Below are positions 11,553 through 12,819 of a stretch of DNA of 64,000 nt, piece by piece. Location: assembly GCF_019704555.1 (NCBI RefSeq), contig NZ_AP024745.1:566501-630500 (forward strand), in the 5' to 3' direction. The first letter of the stretch is position 1, and every line of letters begins with the position of its first letter. The notes beneath the pieces are model-generated. The model had not been told where the DNA came from. It made no database searches and worked only from the letters and a program-made list of their open reading frames with translations. Position numbers and translations under genes: made by a program. Source of the stretch: Actinoplanes sp. L3-i22 (GTDB taxonomy: Bacteria; Actinomycetota; Actinomycetes; Mycobacteriales; Micromonosporaceae).

Positions 11553-12617
11553 TCAGAGCGTCCGGCGCTTGGCCGACGCGGCCGCCAGCCGCTCCAGCAC
11601 CGCGACCGTGCCGTCCCAGCCCATGCACGCGTCGGTGACCGACTGGCCGTACGTCATCTCGGCGCCCAGCTCCTGGCGACCCGGCACCAGGAAACTCTCC
11701 AGCATCACGCCGCTGATCGCGTGCTGCCCGGCCTCCATCTGCCCGGCGATGTCCTCGGCCACCAGCGGCTGCCGGTTGTGGTCCTTGTTGCTGTTGCCGT
11801 GCGAGCAGTCGATCACCAGGCGCTCCGGCAGGCCGGCCTTGCGCAGCAGTGCGATCGACGCCTCGACGTCCGCGGCGCTGTAGTTCGGCTTGCCGCCGCC
11901 ACCGCGCAGCACCAGGTGACAGTCCGGGTTGCCGGTGGTGTGCAGGATCGCCGGGGTGCCCGAGTAGTCGATCCCCGGGAAGACGTGCTGCGCCGCGGCG
12001 GCGTGGATCGCGTCGACCGCGGTGGAGACGCTGCCGTCCGGGCGGTTCTTCATGCCGATCGGCATCGACAGGCCGGACGAGAGCTGGCGGTGCACCTGCG
12101 ACTCGACGGTCCGGGCGCCGATCGCACCCCAGGCCACGGTGTCCGCGATGTACTGCGGGGTGATCGGGTCGAGGAACTCGACGGCCACCGGCAGACCCCG
12201 GCCGACCACCTCGAGCAGCAGCTTGCGGGCGATCCGCAGGCCCTCGCCGACGTCACCGGTGCCGTCCAGGGCCGGGTCCATGATCAGACCCTTCCAGCCG
12301 ACCGTGGAGCGCGGCTTCTCGAAGTACACCCGCATCACGATCAGCAGGTCGTCCTTGAGCCGCTCGGCCTCGACCTGCAGCCGGTCGGCGTACTCGGCGG
12401 CGGCGGCCGGGTCGTGCACCGAACACGGGCCGACCACGACCAGCAGGCGCTGATCTCGGCCGTTCAGCACGTCCTCGACCTGCTTGCGGCCGGCCAGCAC
12501 GGTGTCGTGCAAATCGGTGGTCAGGGGCAGCTCGTGATGCAGCAGGGCCGGGCTCATCAGCGGCACGATCTTCTCGATCCGCTGGTCACGGACGCGCTGC
12601 ACCTCGGGGGCGGTCAT
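11553..12617 (-). CDS. aroF: 3-deoxy-7-phosphoheptulonate (DAHP) synthase, class I
   Basis: 354 residues, AroF/G/H-type enzyme that condenses phosphoenolpyruvate with erythrose 4-phosphate as the first step of the shikimate pathway. Class I hallmarks: GPCSVHD (near residue 63-69), MRVYFEKPR (near 95), GWKGLI, GARTVESQVHR and the C-terminal DACMGWD. Many actinomycetes rely on the class II enzyme, so class I here may be a second isozyme. The allosteric effector cannot be read from sequence and the symbol is by class only. AAGGAGAG precedes ATG 12617. A leader peptide and attenuator lie directly upstream and imply control by aromatic amino acids. Confidence 0.93.
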   Translation of the reverse strand: MTAPEVQRVRDQRIEKIVPLMSPALLHHELPLTTDLHDTVLAGRKQVEDVLNGRDQRLLVVVGPCSVHDPAAAAEYADRLQVEAERLKDDLLIVMRVYFEKPRSTVGWKGLIMDPALDGTGDVGEGLRIARKLLLEVVGRGLPVAVEFLDPITPQYIADTVAWGAIGARTVESQVHRQLSSGLSMPIGMKNRPDGSVSTAVDAIHAAAAQHVFPGIDYSGTPAILHTTGNPDCHLVLRGGGGKPNYSAADVEASIALLRKAGLPERLVIDCSHGNSNKDHNRQPLVAEDIAGQMEAGQHAISGVMLESFLVPGRQELGAEMTYGQSVTDACMGWDGTVAVLERLAAASAKRRTL

Positions 12618-12670
12618 CGGTGATCTCTCTCCTTCAACCGGCCCTGGACGAGAGCCGGTTTGCTCGGGGC

Positions 12671-12700
12671 AAACAAAAAGGCAGCGACGTCGTCGCTGCC
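12671..12700 (-). terminator. Attenuator terminator in aroF leader
   Basis: On the minus strand, GGCAGCGAC-gac-GTCGCTGCC is followed by TTTTTGTTT. It is a textbook intrinsic terminator between the leader peptide stop (12729) and the aroF start (12617). Its ascending arm overlaps GAGGCA (12697-12702), which can pair instead with TGCCTC (12745-12750) inside the leader hairpin. Confidence 0.92.
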
Positions 12701-12728
12701 TCAGCCGGCTCTGGCGGGGTGTCTCAGG

Positions 12729-12812
12729 TCATGCGGTCATGGCCGAGGCACCGGCTTGAGCCGGCCTCGTAAACCAATAGAACGACCACGTCCGAGACAC
12801 GCCCGCCAGCAT
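12729..12812 (-). CDS. Aromatic-rich leader peptide upstream of DAHP synthase
   Basis: 27-codon reading frame, ATG at 12812 and TGA at 12731-12729. Residues 9-14 read WSFYWF: two Trp, two Phe and one Tyr in six codons, far above chance in this GC-rich genome. Three bases beyond the last of these codons begins a strong hairpin (12745-12768), and the attenuator terminator follows. A ribosome stalled at the aromatic codons would cover the hairpin's 5' arm and free TGCCTC to pair with the terminator's ascending arm. That is the classical attenuation layout. The start lies 8 nt past the histidine kinase stop, so transcripts may also read in from that operon. No clear Shine-Dalgarno site is seen. 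Confidence 0.82.
   Translation of the reverse strand: MLAGVSRTWSFYWFTRPAQAGASAMTA
12745..12768 (-). promoter_or_regulatory. Leader (1:2) hairpin of aroF attenuator
   Basis: On the minus strand, GAGGC-CGGCT pairs with AGCCG-gt-GCCTC: ten base pairs with a 2-nt bulge and a 2-nt loop. It lies inside the leader reading frame, directly after the aromatic codons. Confidence 0.75.
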
Positions 12813-12819
12813 AGCCCGA

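Follow-up and report, generated by a model that had tools for sequence, protein, structure and literature searches.

The analysed window, a 64-kb stretch of DNA, covers positions 566501-630500 of a 12.0-Mb single-contig genome of an Actinoplanes relative. Among the matches listed for its DAHP synthase, the first seven named relatives were Actinoplanes species with 91-95% identity. The gene order on the minus strand is histidine kinase (stop codon at 12822-12820), leader, terminator and class I DAHP synthase. The identity assigned to the downstream gene in a preliminary description was confirmed by a PF00793 match, and the ribosome site placed before it is present as an SD-like sequence at 12634-12627. 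The genes and leader features are as follows:

11553..12617, minus strand: class I DAHP synthase gene (aroF-like), ATG at 12617, 354 aa, PF00793 E 1.4e-84
12627..12634, minus strand: SD-like AAGGAGAG before the DAHP synthase gene
12729..12800, minus strand: leader ORF VSRTWSFYWFTRPAQAGASAMTA ending in a stop codon, 23 codons, GTG start, probably leaderless, as judged from the sequence and its relatives
12808..12813, minus strand: -10 box TATGCT, 7 nt before the GTG start, found as TANNNT in 80 of 80 named loci
12771..12788, minus strand: control codons TGG TCG TTC TAT TGG TTT (WSFYWF), identified by codon counts, with the rare TAT and TTT kept in relatives

A profile search of the whole genome with PF00793 returned the DAHP synthase of the window as the sole match. 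A class II DAHP synthase (PF01474) is present elsewhere in the genome (L241, C1:1773434-1774717), and an aromatic leader with a -10 box was absent from the 400 nt preceding that match. A TAGGCT box lies 6 nt 5′ of an ATG at L241. The sequence suggests that the class II enzyme is encoded by a leaderless gene without an aromatic leader. No Rfam 15 covariance model matched the window at the gathering score. Against 15 related loci, with E up to 1, only two mir-5881 matches were returned, both below the gathering score and outside the L056 leader; the match at L056:237-300 (E 4.6e-5) scored 34.9 bits, where the gathering score is 87.

A 27-codon frame had been described 8 nt past the kinase gene. 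The frame is present on the minus strand, from ATG 12812 to the TGA at 12731-12729, but it begins 7 nt past the kinase stop codon and its likely start is GTG 12800. Initiation at 12812, as proposed earlier, is not supported, since this ATG sits inside the -10 box TATGCT. In the named set, which comprised 80 named loci with class I DAHP synthase (the best 80 of 568 relatives), all 80 loci carried a TANNNT box, 7 nt (62 loci) or 6 nt (18 loci) before the leader start, and the aromatic frame started with GTG in 69 and ATG in 11. GTG 12800 is the most likely start codon in the window. As TATGCT includes ATG 12812, the opening codons of the longer frame, MLAG, would be promoter, and with this box 7 nt upstream of GTG 12800 the leader is probably translated in a leaderless manner. 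No conserved -35 element was found upstream of the leaders.

In 80 of 80 named loci (best 80 of 568 relatives), the DAHP synthase gene comes after a short ORF that contains codons for Trp, Tyr and Phe, which bears out both the aromatic leader peptide and the expected conservation of its aromatic codons. Across all six frames of the 64 kb, WSFYWF was the only six-codon window to have five or more aromatic residues, and none occurred in ten first-order Markov-randomised windows, so the run exceeds chance. In the 80 named leaders (best 80 of 568), which are from related loci and thus do not give independent counts, Tyr was encoded by TAT in 80 of 81 cases compared to 0 of 420 in the enzyme genes, and Phe by TTT in 95 of 109 compared to 5 of 349. 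The enzyme-gene codons were counted in the first 1020 nt of the enzyme matches at the same loci; TAT and TTT are genome-rare. Codons ending in A or T made up 30-37% of the other leader codons versus 5.8% of the genes' codons. The shift to TAT and TTT is therefore partly general to the leader and mostly specific to the aromatic codons. Phe and Tyr codons ending in U are read by wobble, and wobble-read TAT and TTT would heighten the sensitivity of the ribosome to tRNA supply. Among the 80 named loci (best 80 of 568), the last aromatic codon specified Phe in 63, always as TTT, and Trp in 17; among 40 other loci it was Phe in 37 and Trp in 3. A shortage of Phe or Trp should therefore act most directly.

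Among the matches listed, an aromatic leader was present in 105 of 107 loci with DAHP synthase relatives, corresponding to 98 distinct sequences; some species occur both named and unnamed in these 107. In the order-wide sample, the enzyme was detected in 210 of 348 genomes at E 1e-40 and the leader in 35 of 40 upstream regions from 39 genomes. The class-wide sample contained the enzyme in 58 of 296 genomes and the leader in 11 of 20 regions, with 0 of 9 in family f31. The leader was found in 3 of 13 further genomes and was absent from 9 of the 12 loci fetched there. Regions without a leader were kept in all counts (L027 and L028 of the 107; L146, L158, L162, L163 and L164 of the 40; nine f31 regions, L198-L206), and 12 of all 18 such later regions were re-read. 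The f-labels denote anonymous families, and taxon names attached to them are guesses. Examples of leaders are VTRSYRWFRQPARTPVTSP (Micromonospora), VKRCYWRFFEWPALVPGDSADR (Kribbella), VQRYFWFSGPALGGPAGGLAAR (f15), MTNRWYAYFSLALEGPASN (f18) and MRNWRFYFEWGSGR (f8, small genome). L158 and L162 belong to one genus and have no recognisable leader peptide by our search; a GAGCCGG...CGGCTCG-like palindrome is retained in L158. Micromonospora and Salinispora loci (L060, L068, L083 and others) contain CACGGT...ACCGTG just before the DAHP synthase start, which may form a putative hairpin across the start codon, with the SD lying in its loop.

The RNA elements of the window are the following:

12792..12800, minus strand: 5′ strand of helix P0 at the RNA 5′ end, pairing with 12719-12728; clear in Actinoplanes, Micromonospora and Phytohabitans
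12719..12728, minus strand: 3′ strand of P0, CCTGAGACAC, directly past the leader stop, from comparison
12758..12766, minus strand: element A, GGCCGGCTC, codons immediately 3′ of the aromatic run, with B or C as candidate partner, from clade comparison
12745..12756, minus strand: element B, AGCCGGTGCCTC, 3′ arm of the A:B hairpin, from clade comparison and folding
12741..12750, minus strand: TGCCTCGGCC, putative antiterminator strand with partner 12697-12706, confined to part of the Actinoplanes-type leaders
12703..12711, minus strand: element C, GAGCCGGCT, abutting the terminator, with A or D as candidate partner, from clade comparison and covariation
12678..12702, minus strand: intrinsic terminator hairpin with an 11-bp perfect stem, from folding and covariation
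12671..12679, minus strand: T tract TTTTTGTTT, from the sequence
12652..12660, minus strand: element D, AACCGGCTC, second candidate partner of C that also pairs with E; C:D equalled by 0 of 2000 derangements
12636..12643, minus strand: element E, GGCCGGTT, pairing with D just 5′ of the SD, with weaker support

Several of these structures had been named before. The hairpin after the aromatic codons (GAGGCCGGCTCAAGCCGGTGCCTC, 12768-12745) is present, but it folds as 9 bp with a 2-nt bulge and not as 10 bp. The perfect intrinsic terminator with its T tract was recovered with an 11-bp stem at 12702-12678, and the pairing of TGCCTC with GAGGCA extends to 10 bp (12750-12741 with 12706-12697).

Complementarity between A, past the aromatic run, and C, before the terminator, recurs across clades with differing sequences (GGCCGGCTC/GAGCCGGCT in the window, GGCTCCGGGTGG/CCACCCGGAGCC in f34, TTGGCTCTGGAGG/CCTTCAGAGCCAA in f18 and CCGGCCCGGAATGG/CCATTCCGAGCCGG in f15a). 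An alignment-free species-swap test compared the pairing of an element with its own partner and with partners from other clades, using 2000 clade derangements and 59 sequences of 16 clades that were hand-picked (19 of 105, 26 of 30 and 14 of 14 leaders). A first A:C test on the unpatterned 48 nt past the stop gave a mean clade z of -1.55. With element C located by a pattern written after the sequences had been seen, the mean clade z was -1.84 for A:C, negative in every clade, and -1.17 for C:D, negative in all 16 clades; together with A:B (-0.81), each was equalled by 0 of 2000 derangements. D:E was weak (-0.41, 1 of 2000 as good). In the same test, B:C (244 of 2000 as good) and element A with the 5′ arm of the terminator (305 of 2000) were unsupported, and no support was obtained for the control pairings A:D, B:D, 5′ end:B and 5′ end:D. 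In 59 of 59 sequences, the distance from the last aromatic codon to the first C-paired nucleotide of A was 0-6 nt, where 0 is a lower bound by construction as the search began at that codon; the terminator began 0-3 nt after A:C in 43 of 44. Given known footprints, a ribosome paused at the final aromatic codon would occupy the 5′ half of A.

Covariation was scored in two alignments. Alignment A2 (24 sequences from clades other than that of the window; A:C and terminator, 22 pairs) had 91.7% of cells paired. Both partners had changed in 11 of the 22 pairs (A:C 4 of 12, terminator 7 of 10), and 6 of the 12 A:C pairs never varied. Its covariation score was reached by 0 of 500 shuffles, and RNAalifold predicted the A:C and terminator helices unaided. 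The covarying terminator stem anticipated in relatives is thus conserved. In alignment A3 (18 sequences from the window's side), element A is nearly invariant and A:C hardly varies; its covariation was not above shuffles (160 of 500 as high), and RNAalifold returned an A:B-type hairpin and the terminator, not A:C. The assignment of A:C in the window therefore rests on the comparison between clades. Helix P0 was equalled by 37 of 2000 derangements overall, with clade z of -3.4 in Actinoplanes and -1.8 in both Micromonospora and Phytohabitans; it was weak in f1g20, f3 and f34 (-1.1 to -1.3) and absent in the remaining clades. In 89 Micromonosporaceae loci, the 5′ end paired with its own post-stop segment over a mean of 6.4 nt versus 4.6 nt for swapped segments. 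Sequence comparison supports a widely conserved scheme in which A would pair with C, and C alternatively with D beyond the terminator.

A terminator between leader and gene was detected by script in 102 of 105 loci, with short T tracts in several clades. No T-tract terminator was found after C in clades f15b and f8noc, and the output of the switch may differ there. In f15b (L147-L161) and f8noc (L165-L172), a direct hairpin between C and D, CGAGCCGG...CCGGCTCG, is possible instead. The antiterminator pairing behind the mutually exclusive structures of classical attenuation, as first described, is available in the window and is supported locally, in Actinoplanes (clade z -3.2), but left no signal over 14 clades, where B with the terminator 5′ arm was equalled by 1336 of 2000 derangements. 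An antiterminator helix of at least 8 bp occurred in 18 of 46 distinct Actinoplanes-type leaders; the counts were 3 of 33 for the Micromonospora type, 1 of 15 for Kribbella and 1 of 3 for Phytohabitans. When transcripts truncated before the 3′ arm of the terminator were folded with the ribosome stretch masked, the antiterminator formed in four of seven Actinoplanes-type sequences, that of the window included; the other three and nine sequences from other clades gave no antiterminator fold. At equilibrium, the whole terminator had a mean pair probability of 0.77-1.00 in all three ribosome states over 16 sequences. Because the terminator dominates whatever is masked, switching must be kinetic or of another kind. 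Since it is not conserved across clades, a classical antiterminator was rejected as the general mechanism. These models make classical antitermination by kinetics plausible in the window, but it seems not to be what the clades have in common.

Both leader and attenuator are genuine and kept in relatives, and we consider it likely, on comparative grounds, that they control the class I DAHP synthase gene by ribosome-mediated transcription attenuation. From the spacing of the -10 box, transcription would start at or next to GTG 12800, and a ribosome would load on the leaderless 5′ end. When charged aromatic tRNA is ample, the ribosome would reach the stop codon and A would pair with B or C; the terminator would then be unblocked, and transcription would end near 12671. 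When aromatic tRNA is short, the ribosome would wait on the TAT, TGG and TTT codons and cover the start of A. In the window, B would then pair over 10 bp with the 3′ end of C and the terminator 5′ arm, and the antiterminator so formed would allow RNA polymerase to read on into the DAHP synthase gene. A:C may set the efficiency of the adjoining terminator, and D may capture C after read-through. The clade comparison supports A:B, A:C and C:D as alternative pairings; translation of the leader, stalling and read-through are predicted.

Other explanations were weighed against attenuation of this kind. Termination might be modulated without an antiterminator, with C, once freed from A, weakening the adjoining terminator directly or exposing the RNA to Rho. 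This would suit the position of A:C next to the terminator (0-3 nt in 43 of 44 sequences), the short T tracts of several clades and the lack of an antiterminator conserved across clades, but its physical basis is conjectural and the window has a long T tract and a possible antiterminator; we regard it as rather unlikely. Mainly translational control, in which C:D versus D:E would open or close the ribosome site of the DAHP synthase gene, appears more improbable still. Although C:D has a negative z in all 16 clades, the D:E hairpin ends beside the SD, a T-tract terminator after C is missing from two clades, and the control in Corynebacterium glutamicum is termed translational in the excerpted text of PMC7356990, D:E is weak, and sequestering D changed the opening cost of the ribosome site by a mean of 0.01 kcal/mol over 16 clades with no consistent sign (10 clades up, 5 down and 1 near zero).

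A nascent peptide (WFxxPA or similar), rather than the supply of charged tRNA, could also stall the ribosome, and many clades do have a Pro-Ala or Ala-Pro-Gly-Gly segment after the aromatic run. The amino acids that A encodes, however, vary by clade (RPA, APGG, LALEG) while the pairing with C is kept, so that the A segment looks conserved as RNA, and the use of rare TAT and TTT favours tRNA supply; an arrest peptide is thus highly unlikely. That the ORF arose by chance between two genes, the hairpin being merely the terminator of the kinase gene, is scarcely credible: the frame follows the kinase stop by 7 nt, but all 80 named relatives (best 80 of 568) have the ORF together with a -10 box of its own, and it is kept in clades with differing sequences, and this conservation already contradicts the idea.

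A covariance model of A:C and the terminator (R1) was run on the 296 class-wide genomes and matched 46 of them, missing known positives such as G040. The matches included ten f31 genomes and one f34 genome (G601), all of which had given no enzyme match earlier:

L229-L239, in genomes G510, G606, G567, G422, G492, G452, G519, G385, G590, G501 and G601: leader with A:C and terminator before another gene

The short ORFs at these loci, e.g., MNRSFAFIEPAPGSRS or MGRYSSFTRPAPGGPVA, contain Phe in 11 of 11, Tyr in 7 of 11 and Trp in 0 of 11 leaders. In the three tested cases (L229, L238 and L239), the gene behind the leader combines a partial DAHP_synth_1 domain with chorismate mutase (CM_2), and five more look alike by eye. 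The three fusion genes presumably lack the usual catalytic motifs. The missing Trp fits an enzyme that would belong to the Phe/Tyr branch; Trp is also absent from 7 of 40 true DAHP synthase leaders outside the first set, so the rule is not strict. In the genome of the window, model R2 found one convincing copy, that of the window (E 6e-30). A second R2 match (L240, E 0.007) was dismissed, as no aromatic leader was seen. A broader reading is possible, and we put it forward tentatively as falling short of probable. The locus may represent an old actinomycete RNA switch responsive to aromatic amino acids that has no classical antiterminator, in which a leaderless ORF would gate the exclusive helices A:B, A:C, C:D and, weakly, D:E around the terminator, and which as a module would have moved to the fusion of partial DAHP synthase and chorismate mutase, the control codons changing with the target (Trp dropped).

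If attenuation of DAHP synthase is confirmed, a single RNA device would govern entry into aromatic synthesis in many actinomycetes, including antibiotic producers. The conserved pairing scheme differs from that of a textbook attenuator, which was unexpected, and A:C and C:D had been missed in the preliminary description. The pairings and codons to mutate are now named. They raise the testable question of how attenuation proceeds if the leader has its conserved partner next to the terminator and not in it. Through the codon bias, it can also be tested cleanly whether rare codons read by wobble act as sensors of starvation.

Canestrari et al. reportedly described leaderless polycysteine attenuators of mycobacteria in 2020; these share a leaderless regulatory short ORF with the present locus, but use cysteine codons. 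Neshat et al. are said to have described the aroR-aroF attenuator of C. glutamicum in 2014. Our literature search found no aroF leader of Micromonosporaceae. The trp operon attenuators of Streptomyces and Corynebacterium (Seliverstov et al., 2005, PMC1262725) resemble the window, as far as the consulted sections describe them, in combining a short ORF rich in end-product codons with a GC-rich terminator. They involve other genes and codons, and conserved antiterminator complementarity is reported there, whereas it is not conserved across clades here. The same sections cover trp, cys and leu elements only, with no conserved structures upstream of the other amino acid pathway genes examined and no conserved terminator hairpin upstream of mycobacterial cys operons. 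The Streptomyces lividans trpL is reported to be leaderless in the consulted part of a survey (PMC8079986), where the word aroF does not occur.

The precedent of an aroF leader in C. glutamicum, cited in the preliminary description, was upheld by the portions consulted of papers on that leader (PMC11802643, PMC4046766, PMC3890552, PMC7356990), one of which (PMC7356990) calls the control translational. According to the excerpt of a review, Phe limitation raises aroF transcription through the leader in a stalling-dependent manner, and Tyr availability has no effect. The pattern of last aromatic codons in our loci fits this report, and both, by analogy, warn against taking all three aromatic amino acids as sensed. 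Like the window, aroR-aroF has a leader peptide with Phe and Tyr codons before a DAHP synthase gene; the excerpts name only Phe-Tyr-Phe for aroR, whereas Trp, Tyr and Phe are all present in the leaders studied here. L179 and L182 (genomes of 2.4-2.7 Mb with WRFYF leaders; their assignment to Corynebacterium is presumed from genome size and the FYF leader) carry an A:C-type pairing and a terminator, with clade z of -1.9 for A:C and -0.4 for C:D. From these sequences, the attenuator of the window is probably an orthologue or close relative of aroR-aroF.
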